The notes beneath the pieces were generated by a model. It searched no databases and was not told the DNA's origin. It saw only the letters and a list, made by a program, of their open reading frames with translations. Shown here piece by piece: positions 3,371-61,094 of a DNA stretch of 64,000 bases. Within the stretch, counting starts at the first letter, position 1, and each line of letters begins with the position of its first letter. A program made the position numbers and the translations under genes. The stretch comes from Singulisphaera sp. GP187 (lineage in GTDB: Bacteria; Planctomycetota; Planctomycetia; Gemmatales; Gemmataceae). The stretch is taken from assembly GCA_945905925.1 (NCBI GenBank), contig CAMDQN010000014.1, positions 1 to 64,000 of the forward strand, given 5' to 3'.

Positions 3371-4888
3371 CTACTTCTTCGCGCGCCGGAATTCCTGCTC
3401 CAGAAACCTCACGCCGTCTACCTCACCGTTCGTGCCAAGCCGGAACAGCACGTCAAACGTGCTGCGGTCGAACGAGATCACGTCGTCTTTCGGTTCCACC
3501 GGGACCGCTGTGAACGTGTCGAAGTGGTGGTGATCCAAACGGAACGTGTACTTCCCCCACCGGATCATCAGCGTGTCGTTCTCGACGAACACCTCGGCGC
3601 GCCCGTAGGCGCGCTCCTCGAACGCGCCGGTGTAGTCCCTCAGCGCAAGGCTCGGTTTCGTGTCCCGCTTGCGGGTAGCCTCTCGCTTCTCCTTCCCGGC
3701 CGCGATGTTGAAGTCCAGGCGCGCAAACTGGAACTTGTAGAACGCGACCCAGTCTTCCGCTGGCAGGTCGAGCAGCGCGTCGAGCGCGGTCTTGCACACC
3801 GCTTCGCTCACGTAAGACGGGCGCAGGTTGCACAGCACGAACACGCCGATCTTCTTCTCGGGCACGAACATGCACTGCGCGCGGAACCCGGTGAGCGTGC
3901 CGCCGTGCGACACGCACGTGACCCCGCGATAGTCGTGGGTGAACCAGCCCAGCCCGTAGGTGGCGAACCGCGTCACGTTCGGCGGGAAGTACACGCTGAA
4001 CGGGTCTTCGAGCTTGAGGATGATCTGTGCGGCGTGCGTTTCGCGCAGTCCGCGTTCAGTGACGAACCGGCGCCCGTCGTACTTGCCGCCCGCGAGTTGG
4101 AACTGGAGCCACGCGGCCATGTCGCGTGCAGTGCTGTTGACGGCCCCGGCCCCGCCCACATGATCGTTATCGTCCCACTTCAGTACGGAAACGGACTTGT
4201 CCAGTCCCTTATAGTGCGGGGTCGCGTGATCGGGGTGCACCGTGCCTTCCTTCCGGGTGCAACTGCTCCGCTCCATGCCGAGCGGCTTGAAGATGCGTGC
4301 TTTCATGACGCCGGCCCAGTCGGTGTTGTCGAGCTTCCCCGCGAGGACGCCGGCCGCGGTGAACGGCACGTTGGAATATTCCCATTTCGAGCGGAACGAA
4401 CTCGACGACGCGGCCTTGCCCCACCGCCGAATCACATCACCACTATCGGTGCTCAATCCGGCCCAGAGCATGTCGTGCCTGGGCATCCCGGTGCGATGGC
4501 AGAGGAGGTCGCGAAGGGTCACGTCGCGGTCGGCGAGTTCGTCGGAGAGTCGAAAGTAGTCGAGGTGGTCACGGACGCGGTCGTCCCATTTCAGTTTACC
4601 GTCGTCACCGAGCATCGCGAGCGCCGTGGCAGTAAACGCTTTCGAGCACGACGCGATGGGGAACACCGTGTCGGGTGTGACTTTTTCGGGCTTGCCCTTC
4701 TCGCGCACGCCGAAGCCCTTGAGGTAGATCACCGCACCGTCCTTTACGATGACAACCGACGCACCGGGCGCGTCGAATTCTTTGAGCGCCTTCTCGACAA
4801 CGGTGTCGATGGTCTTCGGGTCGAAGTCGGCCGCCCGCAACGGCGCGGGAACGAGCAAGAGAGCGAACAGCAGGGTGGAGCGGCGCAC
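3371..4888 (-). CDS. Serine hydrolase, beta-lactamase class C / penicillin-binding fold
   Basis: Predicted exported serine hydrolase of 505 residues. The nucleophile motif S-x-x-K is seen as SCSK (about residues 80-83). The Tyr motif is YSN in WEYSN (about 171), and the third motif is HGG in VSHGGTLTG. A hydrophobic N-terminal stretch ending in LRAA is a signal peptide. The family includes class C beta-lactamases, D-amino acid peptidases and esterases. A long C-terminal extension (last 120 residues or so) resembles the lipocalin-like tail found in many 'beta-lactamase-related' proteins, so the substrate cannot be stated. I chose the GTG at 4888 because it has GGAG six bases upstream and puts the signal peptide at the very N-terminus. 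Another in-frame GTG lies at 4939. It is followed downstream by no partner gene on the same strand. Confidence 0.85.
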   Translation of the reverse strand: MRRSTLLFALLLVPAPLRAADFDPKTIDTVVEKALKEFDAPGASVVIVKDGAVIYLKGFGVREKGKPEKVTPDTVFPIASCSKAFTATALAMLGDDGKLKWDDRVRDHLDYFRLSDELADRDVTLRDLLCHRTGMPRHDMLWAGLSTDSGDVIRRWGKAASSSSFRSKWEYSNVPFTAAGVLAGKLDNTDWAGVMKARIFKPLGMERSSCTRKEGTVHPDHATPHYKGLDKSVSVLKWDDNDHVGGAGAVNSTARDMAAWLQFQLAGGKYDGRRFVTERGLRETHAAQIILKLEDPFSVYFPPNVTRFATYGLGWFTHDYRGVTCVSHGGTLTGFRAQCMFVPEKKIGVFVLCNLRPSYVSEAVCKTALDALLDLPAEDWVAFYKFQFARLDFNIAAGKEKREATRKRDTKPSLALRDYTGAFEERAYGRAEVFVENDTLMIRWGKYTFRLDHHHFDTFTAVPVEPKDDVISFDRSTFDVLFRLGTNGEVDGVRFLEQEFRRAKK

Positions 4889-7018: not shown

Positions 7019-8250
7019 CCGCGATTCCTGCTTGTCGATCGTGCGGGTGTACCCCGCTCGCGCCGGTGCTCTCGCTCGGTAACACGCCGCTCGCGAACGC
7101 GCTCTGTGACGCGTCGCAACTCGGCGCGCAGGAGGCAACGTTCCCGCTAGACCTCGCGGTGTGCCCGCGGTGCGCGCTGGTGCAGATCACCGCGACCGTG
7201 CCGCCGGACGACCTGTTCCGCGACTACGTGTACTTCTCGTCGTTCTCGGACACGATGCTGAGGCACGCGGCCGAACTCGCGCTGCAACTCATGCGTGACG
7301 AGGATCTCAGCCCCGCGAGTCTCGTCGTCGAAGCGGCGAGCAACGATGGTTATTTGCTCAAGAACTACCAGGCGTCTGGAGTGCAGGTACTCGGCATCGA
7401 GCCTGCCAGGAACATCGCGCAAGTCGCGGTGGAGCGCCACGGCATCCCAACACGCGATGAGTTCTTCGGCCGCGATTACGCGAAGCAGCTCGTCGCCGAA
7501 GGCTACCGCGCCGACGTGTTCCACGCGCACAACGTTCTGGCGCACGTCCCGGACCTGAACGGCTTCGTGGCTGGCATCCGCACGCTGCTGAAGCCGAGCG
7601 GCGTCGCGGTGATTGAAGCGCCTTACGTCAAGGACATGCTCGATCACTGCGAGTTCGACACGATCTACCACGAACACCTCTGCTACTTCTCGCTGACGAC
7701 ACTCGACGCCCTTTTCCGGCGCCACGACCTGATCATTCGCGACGTGGCACGCGTTCCCATTCACGGCGGCTCGCTCAGGCTATTCGCGTCACCGCTTGAG
7801 AGCGTGGATGAAGTCTCTCCACGCGTCACGCGATTGCTCGCGGAAGAAGCGGCGTGGGGCGTGAACACCTTCGAGCCGTACCGTGCGTTCGCGGAGCGAG
7901 TCGCCACGATCAAGCGCGGCTTACGCGACCTCCTGGAACAACTCAAAGCCTCGGGCAAACGGATCGCGGCTTACGGCGCGTCGGCGAAAGGCAGCACGCT
8001 GCTGAACTACTGCGGCATCGGCCCGGAAACGCTCGATTTCATCGTGGACCGCAGCACCGTGAAGCAGGGGAAGTTCACGCCCGGTACGCGGCTGCAAATC
8101 CACGCGCCGGACAAACTGCTCGAAGACATGCCGGACTACACGCTGCTGCTAACGTGGAACTTCGCGGACGAAATCTTGCGTCAGCAGTCCGAGTACCAAC
8201 AGCGCGGCGGGAAGTTCATCCTGCCCGTGCCACTGCCCCGTGTCGCGTGA
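7015..8250 (+). CDS. NDP-hexose C-methyltransferase (TylCIII/NovU-like)
   Basis: SAM-dependent methyltransferase of 411 residues predicted to add a methyl carbon to the CDP-4-keto-6-deoxyhexose made by the preceding enzymes. The N-terminus has a zinc-binding CRSCG...CPRC domain. The central SAM fold shows [12 protein letters not shown] and the later [10 protein letters not shown]. The hallmark YHEHLCYFS (catalytic His-Glu-His region of TylC3/NovU-type C-methyltransferases) follows, and a C-terminal Rossmann-like domain ([13 protein letters not shown]...DFIVDRS) closes the protein. The GTG start overlaps the previous stop by four bases. The in-frame open region upstream to 6373 lies inside rfbG and is not coding. 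Methylation at C3 is inferred from the family, not shown. Confidence 0.88.
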
Positions 8251-8787: not shown

Positions 8788-9686
8788 CGCGGCTCCTCAT
8801 TACCGGTGCGACGGGCTTCATCGGCGAACCGGCGGTGCGCCTCGCGGCTGAGACCTTCGAGGTTCACGGCACGGCACGCGGCACGCACGCGAAGACGCAA
8901 GCGGCATTTTACCGCTGCGACCTCCTCAACACTCGCGACGTTACTCGCCTGATCGAGGACGTGCGGCCGACGCACCTGCTTCATCTCGCGTGGATCGCGA
9001 CACCCGGCGTGTACTGGGCCTCACCGGAAAATCATCGGTGGGTGGAAGCGTCGAAGCACCTGCTACTCGCATTCGCGCGGTGCGGCGGACGGCGTGCGGT
9101 TCTCGCGGGAACGTGCGCCGAATACGACTGGAGCGTCGCCGGCGTGTGCCACGAACACGACACGCCGACGCACCCGCACACGACCTACGGGCGCTGCAAA
9201 CTCGAACTCGGCCGCTGGGCCGAAACGTTCGGAAACGCTCGCGGAATCGCCGTCGCGCGGGCGCGACTGTTCTTCATTTACGGGCCGCGCGAGTACCCGG
9301 CGCGGCTGGTTCCTTCCGTGGCGAACGCGCTGCTCAACGGCGCGTCGGCCGCGTGTTCTGCGGGCACGCAGGAGCGGGACTTCCTACACGTCGAGGACGT
9401 GGCCGACGCGATCGTGGCACTCACGCGGAGCGACCTCACCGGTCCCGTGAACATCGGCTCCGGTGAAGCGGTCGCGGTGCGCGACGTGATCGAGTGTGTG
9501 GCGCACGCGTCCGGGCGCCCGGAACTGGTGCGCCTCGGCGCCCGCGAAACACCCGCGAACGAACCGGCGATACTGGTGGCCGACGTGAACAGACTCCGCG
9601 ACGAACTCGGCTGGCGCCCGCGCATCGCGCTCGCGAGTGGCCTGTGCGAAACCGCGAACTGGTGGAGGCTAAATCGTGCCGCCTAA
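8784..9686 (+). CDS. NAD(P)-dependent sugar epimerase/4-ketoreductase
   Basis: Extended short-chain dehydrogenase of 300 residues. GATGFIG at the N-terminus is the cofactor loop. YGRCKLE supplies the catalytic Tyr-x-x-x-Lys, and FIYGPREYPARLVPSV and RDFLHVEDVADAIV are the expected distal motifs. As the last reductase-like enzyme in the operon it probably reduces the 4-keto group of the modified sugar, giving the final CDP-deoxysugar. Reduction at another carbon or epimerisation is possible. It overlaps the gene before (ATGA) and the one after (11 bases), consistent with coupled expression. Confidence 0.85.
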   Translation: MTRLLITGATGFIGEPAVRLAAETFEVHGTARGTHAKTQAAFYRCDLLNTRDVTRLIEDVRPTHLLHLAWIATPGVYWASPENHRWVEASKHLLLAFARCGGRRAVLAGTCAEYDWSVAGVCHEHDTPTHPHTTYGRCKLELGRWAETFGNARGIAVARARLFFIYGPREYPARLVPSVANALLNGASAACSAGTQERDFLHVEDVADAIVALTRSDLTGPVNIGSGEAVAVRDVIECVAHASGRPELVRLGARETPANEPAILVADVNRLRDELGWRPRIALASGLCETANWWRLNRAA

Positions 9687-10947
9687 GAATTGCCCGGTCT
9701 GCGATTCGATGAACACCGAACGCTTCTTGGTTCGGCGCGGTGTGCCAGTTCACCAGAACATGCTGTTCGACACGCCCGAAGCGGCCCGCGCCATCGCGCG
9801 CGGCGACCTCGAAATGCGCGTCTGCGGCGCGTGCGAGTTCGTGTTCAACGCGGCGTTCGACCCGGCCCTCGTGGACTACGGCCCCGCTTACGAGAACAGT
9901 CAGGACTGTTCCCCCGCGTTCAACGCTCACCTGGACGAATTAGCTGACCACATCGTGACGGGACGCGGTATTCGGACCGGCCGAATCGTCGAAATCGGGT
10001 GCGGTAAGGGAATGTTCCTCCGCAAGTTGCTCGCGCATCCAGAGTGCGCGTGCGACGCGATCGGCTTCGACCCCGCGTACATCGGCCCGGCGGAGCTCAT
10101 GGGTGGCCGGGCGCGATTCGTTACCGACTTCTACAACCCCGCGACCGCAGTGCCTGCTGACACGGTAACGTGCCGGCACGTGATCGAACACATCCCGGAG
10201 CCGCTCGACCTCTTGCGCACCGTGCGCGCCGGGGTCGGCGCGTCGGGCGGCACGCGCGTGTTCTTCGAGACGCCGTGCGCCGAGTGGATTTTGCGAAACC
10301 GCGTCCCGTGGGACTTCTTCTACGAACACTGCTCGCTGTTCACGGCGGGAAGTCTCGCGCTCGCGATGGAGCGCGCCGGGTTCGCGGTCACCGGGGTGCG
10401 ACACATCTTCGGCGGGCAATACCTGTGGGCGGAAGGCGAAGCGAAGAACCTCTCCCCCCAACCCCCTCCCCTAAGAAGGGAGGGGGAGAATGCCATTGAG
10501 AATCAAGTCGCGTATCTGGCGCGCGTTAGCTTTGCTCCCCCTCCCTTCTTAGGGGAGGGGGTTGGGGGGAGAGGTTCTGCCGCCCGCGCGTTCGCCACCG
10601 AGGAGCGTGAGCGCCGCGCCCACTGGGACGCGATCCTCACCGAAACGTGCCCACGCGGCCCGGTGTTCGCCTGGGGCGCTGGCGCGAAGGGCGTCACGTT
10701 CTGCAACCTCGCGGACCCGAACCGCACACGGCTCGCCGGCGTGATCGACGTGAACCCCGCGAAGCAAAACAAGTTTCTCCCGGGCACCGGGCACCCGATC
10801 GTTCCGCCGAACGCAGTGCGGGACGCTGCGGCGGTTCTTGTGTTCAACCCGAATTACCTCGCCGAAGTGCGCGCGATGATCGAGCAACTCGGCTCGCGCG
10901 CCGAAGTCATCGACCCCATGCAGGAGGCAGCGCCATGCAGCTCGTGA
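9676..10947 (+). CDS. Second sugar-type methyltransferase, carrying an in-frame palindromic insertion
   Basis: SAM-dependent methyltransferase of 423 residues related to the C-methyltransferase upstream. It has a zinc-binding N-terminus (CPVC...CGAC), VPVHQNMLF and a SAM-binding core IVEIGCGKGMFL. TCRHVIEHIPEPLDLL and YEHCSLF (the YHEH equivalent) follow, and a C-terminal Rossmann-like domain contains FAWGAGAKGVTF and VIDVNPAKQNKFLPGT. Between the two domains, residues of about 257-301 are encoded by a 134-bp palindromic element (10445-10578) and read as NLSPQPPPLRREGE ... PPPFLGEGVGGRG. The reading frame continues intact. GTG start inside the previous gene. Its target in the operon, a second C- or O-methylation, is unknown. 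Confidence 0.85.
   Translation: MPPKNCPVCDSMNTERFLVRRGVPVHQNMLFDTPEAARAIARGDLEMRVCGACEFVFNAAFDPALVDYGPAYENSQDCSPAFNAHLDELADHIVTGRGIRTGRIVEIGCGKGMFLRKLLAHPECACDAIGFDPAYIGPAELMGGRARFVTDFYNPATAVPADTVTCRHVIEHIPEPLDLLRTVRAGVGASGGTRVFFETPCAEWILRNRVPWDFFYEHCSLFTAGSLALAMERAGFAVTGVRHIFGGQYLWAEGEAKNLSPQPPPLRREGENAIENQVAYLARVSFAPPPFLGEGVGGRGSAARAFATEERERRAHWDAILTETCPRGPVFAWGAGAKGVTFCNLADPNRTRLAGVIDVNPAKQNKFLPGTGHPIVPPNAVRDAAAVLVFNPNYLAEVRAMIEQLGSRAEVIDPMQEAAPCSS
10445..10578. repeat. 134-bp palindromic element inside a gene, perfect 44-bp inverted arms
   Basis: The left arm 10445-10488 begins AGAACCTCTCCCCCCAACCC. The right arm 10535-10578 is its exact reverse complement, and 46 bases lie between. Each arm is itself partly self-complementary around CCCTAAGAAGGG. 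Relatives occur between genes at 27650-27750 (both arms, diverged) and 39953-39995 (one arm). The element is read through in frame as about 45 residues. Confidence 0.95.
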
Positions 10948-20912: not shown

Positions 20913-21105
20913 GTCGAGAGTTCCAGCGAAGGTGAGCCAGAGGCGGGCAGGTTGAATCAGGGTAAGCGATCCGCGTTCGCGTTGCAAGAAACACGCACCA
21001 AGCAGGCCGATTCCGGCTCGCGTGCTGTTGTGTGTCGCCCTGGAGCTTATGATGAGTTGTGAGCTTGCCCGCGGACGGAAAAGCAGAAGACACGAGCGGA
21101 CCCAC

Positions 21106-22542
21106 ATGCCACATTCCGTACTCATCATCGACGACGAGGAGCCGATCGCGTGGGCGCTGCGGCGGGCGTTCGAGCGCGAGAAGCACCGCGTCGAAGTGGC
21201 CGCGACCGCCGAAGACGGACTCGCGAAGGCGAAACTGAACCCGCCCGACGTGATCTTTCTCGACGTGCGGTTGCCCGGCATGGACGGCCTCACGGCGCTC
21301 GGCGAACTGAAGAAGCTAGCCCCGCGTGCGGCGGTCGTGGTCATCACCGCGCACGGGAACCTGAACACCGCGGTGAAGGCCGTCGAGGGTGGCGCGTTCG
21401 ATTACCTCGCGAAGCCGTTCGAGCTGGCGCAAGCGATCGACGCCGCCAAGCGGGCGCTCTCGAACCGCGGCGCGAAGGAAGACTCGGAGGGCTTACGCCC
21501 CCCGCTCGCCGAAGAAGACAATACCCCCGACGCGATCATCGGCCGCAGTCCCGCGATGCAGACCGTGTTCAAGCGGATCGCGCTGGTCGCGCCGACGATG
21601 GCGTGCGTACTCATCACCGGCGAAAGCGGCACCGGCAAGGAACTCGTCGCGCGTGCGGTCCACGCGAACAGCCCGCGGCGTGGCAAGCCGTTCATCGCGG
21701 CGCACGTCGCGGCGTACAACCCGAACCTTGTCGAGAGCGAGTTGTTCGGGCACGTCAAAGGCGCGTTCACGGGCGCGGACCGGGCGCGCGACGGTCTGCT
21801 GAAACTCGCCGACGGCGGCACCGTGTTCCTCGACGAACTCGCGGACATCCCACTTCCGGTGCAGGCGAAGTTGCTCCGCGTGCTCGAGCGCCAAGAAGTG
21901 CAACCGGTCGGCGGGAGCGAGTCGCAATTCGTGGACGTGCGCATCGTCTCCGCGACGCACGCGAACCTTTCGGACGCCGTGCGCGAAGGGAAGTTCAGGA
22001 ACGACTTGTTCTTCCGGTTGAACGTGTACCCGATTCACCTGCCACCGCTGCGCGACCGCGTGGACGACATCCCGGCACTCGCCGAGCACTTCCTCCGCAA
22101 GTTCGGCGTGGCGAACCCCGCCGGTGCGATTCCCGCGGACACGCTCGCGTTCCTGAAATCGCGCCCGTGGCCGGGGAACGTGCGCGAACTTCGCAACGCG
22201 ATTGAACACGCCGCGATCGAATCGCGCGGCGCGGCGCGGCGACCCGAGCATTTCCCCGAACCGAGCACCGCGACCGGCCCGGCCTCGACCGTCGAGCGGA
22301 TGCGATCGCTGGTCGCGGAGTGGGTGCGTGAGCAGGTGCAGGCTCTCGAAGGGCGCGAACCCGCCGACCTTCACCTGAAGTTGATCGAAGCGGTCGAACC
22401 GGCCGTTCTGGACGAAGTGTTACGGCAGGTGGACGGCAACCGGCTCGTCGCGGCCCGCTGGCTCGGCCTCGCGCGCGCGACGGTCCGCAAGCTGATCCGG
22501 AAATACCACCCCGAGAGCGCGGAACCCGACGGGGATGAATAA
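21106..22542 (+). CDS. NtrC-type sigma-54-dependent response regulator
   Basis: Activates sigma-54 promoters after phosphorylation. 478 residues. Receiver domain 1-120 with acidic pocket IIDDEE, phosphoacceptor Asp53 in FLDVRLPGMDG and the conserved Lys in AKPF. The AAA+ domain spans about 145-385, with Walker A GESGTGKE and the sigma-54 contact loop GAFTGA within ESELFGHVKGAFTGAD. A Fis-type HTH lies at the C-terminus (DEVLRQVDGNRLVAARWLGLARATVRKLIRKY). The linker (127-136) is encoded by a 25-bp palindromic element at 21486-21510. No cognate histidine kinase is next to it. Divergent to the PSD1 gene. The S9 peptidase follows 101 bp later, and a regulatory link to it is unproven. Confidence 0.94.
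   Translation: MPHSVLIIDDEEPIAWALRRAFEREKHRVEVAATAEDGLAKAKLNPPDVIFLDVRLPGMDGLTALGELKKLAPRAAVVVITAHGNLNTAVKAVEGGAFDYLAKPFELAQAIDAAKRALSNRGAKEDSEGLRPPLAEEDNTPDAIIGRSPAMQTVFKRIALVAPTMACVLITGESGTGKELVARAVHANSPRRGKPFIAAHVAAYNPNLVESELFGHVKGAFTGADRARDGLLKLADGGTVFLDELADIPLPVQAKLLRVLERQEVQPVGGSESQFVDVRIVSATHANLSDAVREGKFRNDLFFRLNVYPIHLPPLRDRVDDIPALAEHFLRKFGVANPAGAIPADTLAFLKSRPWPGNVRELRNAIEHAAIESRGAARRPEHFPEPSTATGPASTVERMRSLVAEWVREQVQALEGREPADLHLKLIEAVEPAVLDEVLRQVDGNRLVAARWLGLARATVRKLIRKYHPESAEPDGDE
21486..21510 (-). repeat. 25-bp palindromic element in the REC-AAA+ linker
   Basis: The minus strand reads GGCGAGCGGGGGGCGTAAGC then CCTCC. It is the same unit as those inside the Hsp70-like gene (59964-59988, 60597-60621) and between genes at 26199-26223. 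In the NtrC frame it encodes EGLRPPLA. Confidence 0.9.
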
Positions 22543-27649: not shown

Positions 27650-27750
27650 CAACCCCTCCCAACCCCTCCACCAAGAAGGGAGGGGCTAAGAACGGTCGTC
27701 AGTTCTTAGCCCCTCCCTTCTTCGGGAAGGGGTTGGGGGGATAGGTTCTT
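27650..27750. repeat. Intergenic copy of the CCCCTCCC/GGGAGGGG palindromic element
   Basis: The left arm contains AACCCCTCC and AAGAAGGGAGGGGCTAAGAAC, ending at 27693. The right arm starts GTTCTTAGCCCCTCCCTTCT at 27702 and ends near 27750 with TTGGGGGGATAGGTTCTT. The loop is eight bases. It is a diverged relative of the element inside the methyltransferase at 10445-10578, and lies in the promoter gap before the glucosidase gene. Confidence 0.9.
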
Positions 27751-36111: not shown

Positions 36112-36172
36112 TTCGGAGCCGCGACCGTAAGGGAGCGAATCGCTCTCGCTCCCTTACGGTCGCGGCTCCGAA
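36112..36172. repeat. Perfect 27-bp inverted repeat, 7-base loop
   Basis: 36112-36138 (TTCGGAGCCGCGACCGTAAG...) pairs exactly with 36146-36172. It lies between two minus-strand genes, eight bases after the stop of the large haem-binding gene, so it will form in the transcript. No T-run follows. Part of it is shared with position 150-162. Confidence 0.95.
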
Positions 36173-39900: not shown

Positions 39901-40216
39901 GCGAGAGGCTCCGGGAGGGTAGGTTGAGGAACAGTGTACCGCGAAGGGGACGAAGAACCTACCCCCAACCCCCTCCCTGAAAGGAAGGGGAGTTTGAAGC
40001 CGCTCGCGGCTTCGCGAGTGTCCCCCTCGCGCGTCTCGCAAAGCCGCAAGCGGCTGTTGCTACCCTTGGCTTCAGGAATGGGGTCGGTTTCTTCGCGCCC
40101 CGCCTCAACATCGACTTTGCGGATGTGGTAACCCCGTTGGCTTGTGCAAATTTTCCGATCTAGAGTTGCTCGCCATTACCCTCGTCCATCATCGGACGTC
40201 GTGCGAGCGCACTTTC
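39901..40216. other. Divergent intergenic region with two palindrome types
   Basis: Upstream region shared by the haem-binding gene and the kinase gene. It holds a half copy of the CCCCTCCC element (39953-39995), then an inverted pair of the GCCGC-GCGGC palindrome (39996-40018 and 40035-40055). The frame that runs through it from the haem gene reads repeat sequence (TPLPFREGVGG) and is not taken as coding. Confidence 0.7.
39953..40055. repeat. Composite palindromic repeats
   Basis: AGAACCTACCCCCAACCCCC at 39954 matches one arm of the element at 10445. Next to it AGCCGCTCGCGGCTTCGCGAG and CTCGCAAAGCCGCAAGCGGCT form an imperfect inverted repeat with a loop of about 16 bases. Two repeat families have landed side by side. 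Confidence 0.85.
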
Positions 40217-53182: not shown

Positions 53183-53274
53183 TGTAGGGTGGGTACTGCC
53201 CACCATGCGCCGCAAGTCAAATAACGTAGACGTTATTCGAGTTGTTCCGCATGGTGGGCAGTACCCACCCTACA
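53183..53274. repeat. Perfect 27-bp inverted repeat with a nested palindrome
   Basis: Arms 53183-53209 (TGTAGGGTGGGTACTGCCCA...) and 53248-53274 are exact reverse complements. The loop itself contains AATAACGT-AG-ACGTTATT (53220-53237). Lies between two plus-strand genes, 12 bases before the methyltransferase start. Confidence 0.95.
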
Positions 53275-53966: not shown

Positions 53967-54027
53967 GTTAGCTGCAAGCCGAAGGCGAGCGCGTAAAGGC
54001 CACGCTCGCCTTCGGCTTGCAGCTAAC
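53967..54027. repeat. Perfect 25-bp inverted repeat, 11-base loop
   Basis: 53967-53991 (GTTAGCTGCAAGCCGAAGGC...) pairs exactly with 54003-54027. It begins ten bases after the O-methyltransferase stop and precedes dapA on the same strand. Not followed by a T-run. Confidence 0.95.
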
Positions 54028-59525: not shown

Positions 59526-61094
59526 TCACTGCACATTCAGCGCGCGAACCCATTCCGTCTCGCGGGTCATCTCCGCGTCGGAGAGGCCGCCGGGCCGGTG
59601 AATCGCAGCGGTCACGGCGCGGCCGCTCGTCTCGTCGGTCGCGGTTACCTCGATGCGCCCGTTCGACGCGACCCCACACTTCACGCGCACCGGCGAACCC
59701 TTCGGCAGGTCCGCGGGCAGGCCGTCGATCCAGCACTCGCCCACCGGGATGCACGCCTCCGCTTGGTGCGCCTCACCTTGCAAAATGCGCACGCGAACAC
59801 GGGTCTGGTTGTTCGTCGCGGTGTAGTAGAGCCTGGTCGTGGACGCCGGAAGTTGCGTGTTCTTGGGCACGAGTTTGTCGTTCACGCGATCCACCCCGGA
59901 GCGCACTTCCACGCCGAGGCTGTGCGCGTTCACACTGATCTCGACCACGTCGGCATGTTCGGAGGCGAACGGGGGGCGTAAGCCTCCTGTTAGCGATTCG
60001 GGTGCGTTCGCGAAAATGATCCCCGCGTGAACGGCCGCGCCGCGGGCGACTACCTCACTTACGGCGAGGCTGCGGTTAGGCTCCTTGCCGGTCAACTCCG
60101 CGAGCATCAGCGCGCACGCAGGCATGTGCGTGCTACCGCCGACCATCAGCACTTTGTCCACCGCATCCCACGTCAGTTTCGCGTGCTTGAGAACTTGCTG
60201 AGCTGTCAGCCGCGTGCGCACCAGAAGGTCGCGCGTGACCGACTCGAACTCCGCACGCGACAGCGGAAACGTGAACTTGTACCCGCCGTGGTTCGCGGTG
60301 AAACTCGTCTGCTCGACCTTGCTCAGTGTCCGCTTCACGCGCTCCGCGGTGGAAAACAACTGCGCGAGCGATTGCGGATCGGTTCGCGGGTCGGCGCCGC
60401 ACTGCTGCACGAACCGCTCGGCGGCCCAGTTCACGAGCCGCTCGTCCCAGTCGCGCCCGCCGAGCCGCACGTCGCCCTCGATGGCGAGCACCTGGAACCG
60501 CTTGCGCGACAGCTTCACCAGCGTCACGTCGAACGTGCCGCCACCGAGGTCATAGACGAGGATTGTCTCTTGAGCGACTGGCTGTGAATCACCATCAGGA
60601 GGCTTACGCCCTCCGCTCGCCTGAATGGAATAAGCGAGCGCCGCGGCGGAAGGCTCGTCGATGATGTCGATGACGTTCAGGCCCGCAATCTTACCGGCGT
60701 CCATCGTCGCCTTGCGGCGGGTGTCGTCGAAGTACGCGGGCACGGTGATGACGCACCCGGTCACCGGGCCGAGTTGCGCCTCCGCGTCCTGACTGAGTTT
60801 CTTGAGGATCACGGCCGACAGTGCTTCCGGGCGGAACTCTCGCCCGGCGACCGGTGGACCGAAGTCCGGCAACCCCATCCGCCGCTTGATGAGTATCGCG
60901 ACCCGGTCGGGTTCTTCCAGTGCCATATCGAGGGCGGGCGTGCCGACGACGGCGGACCCGTCAGGCGCGAGGTATACCGCGGAGGGCGTGAGCACATCGC
61001 CGTCGCGGTTGGGCACGGTGAAGGGGCGCCCGCGATCGTCGAGCGCCGCGACAGCGCAGAACGTGGTGCCGAGGTCGATTCCGATCAGCGACAT
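59526..61094 (-). CDS. Hsp70-family ATPase with two palindrome-derived insertions
   Basis: 522 residues, about 115 shorter than DnaK. The actin-like ATPase shows IGIDLGTTFCAVAAL (phosphate 1), VPAYFDDTRRKATMDAGKIAGLNVIDIIDEPSAAALAYS, VYDLGGGTFDVTLV and VLMVGGSTHMPAC. The beta-sandwich substrate domain is present (SLGVEVRSG...) but the helical lid is missing. Two 25-bp palindromic elements are translated: SGGRKPPDG between EPSAAALAYS and VYDLGGG (about residues 158-166), and LTGGLRPPFA just before the beta domain (about 369-377). This is a second, specialised Hsp70, not the housekeeping DnaK. Client unknown. Confidence 0.92.
   Translation of the reverse strand: MSLIGIDLGTTFCAVAALDDRGRPFTVPNRDGDVLTPSAVYLAPDGSAVVGTPALDMALEEPDRVAILIKRRMGLPDFGPPVAGREFRPEALSAVILKKLSQDAEAQLGPVTGCVITVPAYFDDTRRKATMDAGKIAGLNVIDIIDEPSAAALAYSIQASGGRKPPDGDSQPVAQETILVYDLGGGTFDVTLVKLSRKRFQVLAIEGDVRLGGRDWDERLVNWAAERFVQQCGADPRTDPQSLAQLFSTAERVKRTLSKVEQTSFTANHGGYKFTFPLSRAEFESVTRDLLVRTRLTAQQVLKHAKLTWDAVDKVLMVGGSTHMPACALMLAELTGKEPNRSLAVSEVVARGAAVHAGIIFANAPESLTGGLRPPFASEHADVVEISVNAHSLGVEVRSGVDRVNDKLVPKNTQLPASTTRLYYTATNNQTRVRVRILQGEAHQAEACIPVGECWIDGLPADLPKGSPVRVKCGVASNGRIEVTATDETSGRAVTAAIHRPGGLSDAEMTRETEWVRALNVQ
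59964..59988 (+). repeat. 25-bp palindromic element in the Hsp70-like gene, copy B
   Basis: GGCGAACGGGGGGCGTAAGC then CTCCT. Opposite orientation to copy A in the same gene. Read on the minus strand as GGLRPPFA. Confidence 0.9.
60597..60621 (-). repeat. 25-bp palindromic element in the Hsp70-like gene, copy A
   Basis: The minus strand reads GGCGAGCGGAGGGCGTAAGC then CTCCT, encoding SGGRKPP. It matches the NtrC-linker copy in most positions. Confidence 0.9.

Follow-up and report, generated by a model that had tools for sequence, protein, structure and literature searches.

Rickettsia is the best-known case of in-frame palindromic repeats inside genes, and the relaxed selection that comes with life inside host cells offers an easy excuse for them there. 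As summarised in PMC3733652 (its references 13 and 14), the Rickettsia palindromic elements RPE-1, RPE-4 and RPE-6 are in-frame palindromic repeats in many unrelated, presumably functional proteins. REP dimers inside open reading frames of Opitutus terrae, Rickettsia conorii and others encode 20-30 or more residues, and in Xanthomonas recB roughly one site holds different REPs, a one-gene precedent for what is described below (PMC3733652). In P. fluorescens SBW25 almost no REP 16-mers lie within genes (PMC3116915), whereas one third of the C-rich dimers sampled here are intragenic and in frame.

Here we report that in-frame palindromes, to judge from genome sequence, are present in dozens of ordinary genes of Gemmata, a genus of Gemmataceae (Planctomycetota), in contrast to the obligate intracellular alphaproteobacterium that hosts the RPEs. 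The initial annotation of this locus remarked that the outcome recalls the Rickettsia elements, and at the level of outcome the likeness is supported: insertion into coding genes is in frame, the reading frame is maintained and, in the methyltransferase, the domains on both sides are intact. Unlike RPEs, the Gemmata copies are REPIN-like inverted dimers with a spacer, in which arms of types A and B mix; REP/REPIN elements are the closer comparison, with RAYT genes present in the genome.

Inverted palindromic pairs, more than 100 copies, conserved arms and a variable spacer are likewise features of REP/REPIN/BIME elements (PMC3116915, PMC3733652), which also match the Gemmata case in their stop-codon-adjacent copies, the lack of an observed target duplication and the presence of palindrome-flanked RAYT genes in the genus. 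In the C-rich family studied here, by contrast, no RAYT was found linked to the repeat in 67 Y1 loci, and a canonical GTAG/CGTC tag seems to be lacking: the arm consensus has neither GTAG nor CGTC in the usual place, and sister variants read CCTACC, which is GTAG on the other strand, at the outer end. The overall kind (RPE or intragenic REP) is already known and no new class is proposed; the new point is the occupancy of the same loop by unrelated families. Compared with the intragenic REPs of PMC3733652, same-site occupancy in Gemmata is seen in each of four genes and in several species, with at least six unrelated families in QueG, and our literature search found no report of in-frame palindromes in Gemmata.

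A paired-hairpin element in a methyltransferase linker

The window (the whole stretch of 64,000 nucleotides that was analysed) contains a C-methyltransferase gene at 9676-10947 on the forward strand, with a GTG start and a product of 423 residues, identified by its ORF, Pfam matches and AlphaFold model, which carries the element in frame. Two arms of 44 nt each, at 10445-10488 and 10535-10578, are 100% complementary and enclose a 46-nt spacer (10489-10534, forward strand); the hairpin cores had 0 chance matches in 100 shuffles, and the 134 nt as RNA have a predicted fold of -112 kcal/mol (z = -14). The initial annotation had described a 134-bp palindromic element with 44-base exact reverse-complement arms read through by the gene, and the exact inverted arms and the open frame through both of them are as it stated. 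The picture of one simple palindrome has to be revised, because each arm holds a hairpin of its own (CCCCTCCC-CTAAGAA-GGGAGGGG), so that the unit is a dimer of two repeats of about 44 nt, two REP-like units in inverted orientation. The left, type A arm (AGAACCTCTCCCCCCAACCCCCTCCCCTAAGAAGGGAGGGGGAG) lies on the forward strand, reads K-N-L-S-P-Q-P-P-P-L-R-R-E-G-E and is the family's modal arm (50 of 132 arms compared), while the right arm, its inverted copy on the reverse strand, reads P-P-P-F-L-G-E-G-V-G-G-R-G.

The insert forms residues 257-302, approximately, between Pfam Methyltransf_23 (PF13489, residues 99-239) and Methyltransf_14 (PF08484, residues 305-404), consistent with the earlier placement between an intact SAM-binding domain and an intact C-terminal Rossmann-like domain. 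In the METHYLTRANSFERASE linker comparison, an alignment of 62 sequences in which the window protein is set beside homologues of many different phyla, the linker has 45-56 residues in nearly all sequences; longer ones occur only in Gemmata-type proteins with palindrome peptides, apart from a single protein (L305) whose 63-residue linker has no palindrome-like peptide. The insert residues are missing from the homologues of other phyla in this alignment, which supports the initial annotation. Its estimate of some 45 added residues is right as to in-frame reading and too high as to net length: the linker of 78 residues against a mode of 49 gives a net gain of about 29, since even the parts of the Gemmata linker that flank the element depart from the usual one.

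An AlphaFold model built from 56 sequences (mean pLDDT 89.6) scores about 48-60 in the insert and mostly above 90 in the domains, so that two well-folded domains are joined by an insert modelled with low confidence. The best PDB matches of the model are the sugar C3-methyltransferases TcaB9, KijD1 and MtmC (PDB 3ndi, 5t64, 4rv9), which have the fold and domain order of the window protein but no counterpart of its palindrome-encoded linker segment. Translation of the element probably yields a floppy additional loop. It would then be a flexible extension of the linker from the SAM domain to the C-terminal Rossmann-like domain, made with the rest of the protein and probably without a catalytic role.

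Orthologues in congeners of the window's own genome (G000) differ at this site. In G005 (84% identical) a same-family element starts at the very base where the G000 element does; its left arm is identical, its spacer belongs to a different subtype, the arms being 44/44 and 43/44 identical to those of G000 and the flanks 85-86%; G017 (85%) carries a shorter element of a different type, and G003 (77%) has none. Orthology of the G000 and G005 spacers, which match at 27 of 46 positions, at first looked significant, and was set aside when other copies proved equally or more alike. Turnover of the element at this site seems the more likely history, because the window spacer, compared with those of known copies, is nearer to that of a second copy elsewhere in its own genome (L060, 85%) than to the G005 spacer at the same site (59%).

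The perfect arms had been read as a sign of recent insertion or of arm-to-arm correction, and neither reading is supported. Identical arm pairs within elements number 9 of 66 against 9.0 expected (edit-distance permutation, 0.03), and many dimers among the sampled C-rich copies combine two different arm types. The permutation rules out arm-to-arm correction, as identity within elements shows no excess above background, and recent insertion is unsupported: the arms match the family consensus, and the same-base element of G005 has near-identical arms. Perfect arms thus indicate neither event, since the two arms of one element are only as alike as arms taken from different copies.

A dispersed family with intragenic copies in frame

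The element is dispersed and multicopy. The 21-nt arm core has 204 matches at up to 3 mismatches in the 6.47-Mb genome (251 contigs) against 18 for the reversed control, about 200 arm copies genome-wide, which agrees with the initial view of a mobile or copied unit rather than a domain. From 60 stretches chosen by exact arm matches, together with the window, we collected 89 copies, of which 76 are inverted pairs and 13 single; inverted doublets are thus over-represented in a dispersed repeat of high copy number, as in REPINs. Across the family the arms are conserved, the spacers vary, the dimer ends read RAAGAACC, and arms of type A (CCTCTCCCCCCAACCCCC..GGGGGAG) and type B (CCCCTCCCCAACCCCTCC..GGGGCTT) mix freely. 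Related arm variants predominate in other species of the genus; of 81 genomes sampled at the level of the family, only 5, belonging to two genera, contain near-exact arms.

The window scan also recovered the two related copies reported previously at 27650-27750 and 39953-39995, both of which look intergenic: a C-rich inverted dimer at 27655-27740 (no strand assigned), just upstream of an ATG, and a single arm of the CCTACC variant at 39957-39977 on the forward strand. Many copies sit just after stop codons, and at two loci (L043, L088) the element's own TAA is the stop of the upstream gene, which ends ...TSPPNPLP*. At another locus (L078, G000:C81), two inverted copies of a 694-aa gene with the in-frame element (3914-4026 and 8125-8237) lie within about 4 kb.

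The 76 dimers of G000 were placed by a codon log-odds model trained on the very loci that it scores. About two thirds are extragenic; 26 are intragenic, and all 26 keep a single frame across the element, free of stops. With a mean open-frame fraction through dimers of 0.38, and a factor of 1/3 for length, a fraction of about 0.13 would be in frame at random. Thirteen same-strand dimers with a stop or frame change, coding on both sides, were considered as broken genes and rejected: all lie between neighbouring genes, because the upstream stop precedes the element by 2-9 nt or, twice, falls on the element's TAA. No visibly disrupted gene was found among the 76 dimers placed by this model, and in a second species, G005, 9 of 38 copies are in frame with no clear disruption.

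The host genes encode NADH-quinone oxidoreductase subunit L (NuoL), RecD2, a RarA-like ATPase, QueG and FPP synthase, as well as a YdiJ/GlcD-like oxidase, PDH E2, an RND transporter, a CobW GTPase, an M16 peptidase, ABC and AMP-ligase proteins and two DUF1549/DUF1553 proteins. In Gemmata, then, inserts are carried by conserved enzymes that act in respiration, repair, tRNA modification and isoprenoid synthesis, with no visible frame breaks in the sample. The inserts are probably translated in working genes, the in-frame rule inside genes being the main evidence. For annotators, the recurrent PLPPTPSPKKGGG and LSPQPPPLRREGE peptides are repeat-derived and not domains.

Unrelated palindromes in the same protein loops

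The comparison between species covered four genes picked for their G000 insert (QueG, RarA, FPP synthase and the methyltransferase), with regions around the insertion point extracted from orthologues of the first three across the genus. In QueG, an inverted repeat above shuffled controls is present in 11 of 17 Gemmata genomes and in 4 of 5 genomes of genus g32; none was found in the QueG loop of the 8 genomes from four other genera, where the loop measures 27-72 nt. The QueG arms are unrelated to one another, some C-rich, others tandem arms of GGAGTGC or TTCGGGA, and others GCGGGGGGCGTAAGCCCCC, CGCGACCGTCAGGGAGCGGG, GAGCGCGGGCCTCCGGCCCGC or GGGACCGCGGCCGTCCCGGCCGC. In all four proteins the same loop holds unrelated palindrome families across Gemmata species, nearly always in frame. 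Two of these families are themselves multicopy, and numerous in species that carry them in the studied loops, GCGTAAG with 228 matches in G017 and 92 in G006, and GGAGTGC with 130 in G015.

Loop insert lengths, as measured here, are multiples of three except in RarA of G001, where a 139-nt insert contains stops; the QueG insert of the same genome also contains stops, together with a run of N. The RarA case may stem from a sequencing error, or the gene may be broken. Two long in-frame inserts, of 219 nt in RarA of G004 (L209) and 258 nt in QueG of G002 (L162), seem to combine palindromes of more than one type, nested or in tandem. Unrelated families in one loop amount to a natural experiment on the positions that tolerate 25-45 extra residues, and make chance plus selection versus targeted insertion directly testable across species.

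Mode of spread and other palindromes in the window

The best explanation, to which we give a probability of roughly 0.78, is a non-autonomous REPIN-like repeat spread by a process of RAYT/Y1 type, with intragenic copies kept only in tolerant loops. The 134-bp element is one member of this multicopy repeat, two C-rich inverted units of about 44 nt around a variable spacer, and its copies would have spread through a single-strand process that recognises hairpins, of the RAYT/Y1-transposase type. Insertions into genes would persist only if their length and frame leave the ORF open and the protein can accommodate a disordered loop rich in Pro, Gly, Arg and Glu, the rest being purged. With few permissive sites and many active repeat families, the same loops would be filled repeatedly by different families.

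Spread of Y1 type is proposed because of the missing target duplication, the palindrome-flanked RAYT genes in genome and genus, and the association of two other same-loop families with RAYTs. In the window's own genome, the Y1-transposase genes at L092 and L093 have similar palindromes on both sides, as do about 25 of 67 Y1 loci (3 in that genome and 64 in the genus). Families F4 (CCGCGACCG..AGGGAGCGGG) and F8 (GGGACCGCGGCCGTCCCGGCCGC) flank RAYT genes, and their relatives turn up in the QueG and RarA loops, whether in congeners or in genus g32. The C-rich repeat flanks none of the 67 Y1 loci identified with the Pfam model, which a RAYT could possibly have escaped, and its candidacy as a RAYT flank was dropped. 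For this reason the C-rich element is described as REPIN-like in the way it works, and is not classed among the RAYT-linked REPINs.

An ordinary DDE-transposon MITE, in frame by chance, would also have terminal inverted arms, conserved ends and many copies. We regard it as improbable, since target-site duplications at C-rich dimers do not rise above shuffled pairs at lengths 4-9 (at length 3, offset 6, there is a slight excess of flanking matches, 4 against 1.3 expected), which fits Y1 transposition and counts against a DDE element, and since heterodimers of two arm types and single arms are BIME-like rather than MITE-like. Removal or bypass at the mRNA level, by intron-like excision or ribosomal hopping over the hairpin, would restore a normal protein and could draw on the great stability of the fold; it is scarcely credible, because it would permit out-of-frame copies and stops, which none of the 26 intragenic G000 copies shows. 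A selected function, whether of the insert as a regulatory linker or binding segment or of the DNA hairpin in place, might be read from occupancy of the methyltransferase site in three congeners and from arms better conserved than their flanks between G000 and G005. We think this very improbable: the conservation of the arms is accounted for by their agreement with the consensus of the family across the genome, the peptide varies among congeners in length and sequence, and G003 does without it.

Directed reuse of sites is a further rival. Here palindromes would be inserted or exchanged at fixed positions, by hairpin-directed transposition or ectopic conversion via the arms, instead of landing at random and being selected. 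Same-type elements begin at the same nucleotide in RarA of G000, G001, G002, G004 and G005, three DUF1553 paralogues in two species carry an element at the same EFQN/GSWS position, and the methyltransferase elements of G000 and G005 share a start base in spite of spacers of different subtypes. Yet unrelated families begin at slightly different positions within one loop, their arms are unable to recombine by homology, and recurrence is already predicted by loop tolerance alone, so that we hold this explanation to be unlikely. Somewhat more doubtful still is the broader conjecture that certain Gemmata loops are docking sites, at which unrelated palindrome families enter or replace one another repeatedly at fixed positions by a hairpin- or target-guided process, as a standing source of new disordered segments in housekeeping enzymes.

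Besides the REPIN-like element, the window holds several other palindromes. That at 53967-54027 (GTTAGCTGCAAGCCGAAGGCGAGCG) belongs to the family flanking the RAYT gene at L092 (1285-1881) of the same genome; a perfect 27-nt palindrome at 36112-36172 is of the CCGCGACCGTAAGGGAGCG family, a RAYT flank in G004, G005 and G012; and a 45-nt inverted repeat (89%; TGTAGGGTGGGTACTGCCCACC...) lies at 53183-53274 near a coding region. Three further palindrome segments, all of GCGGGGGGCGTAAGCCCCC type and absent from the initial annotation, are in frame. Two are in an Hsp70-like ORF on the reverse strand (59526-61094), at 59969-59989 and 60596-60616, reading GGLRPP and GGRKPP. The third, at 21485-21505 in an NtrC-like response regulator on the forward strand (21022-22542), reads SEGLRPPLAEE and falls in an apparent linker between the receiver and AAA+ domains.
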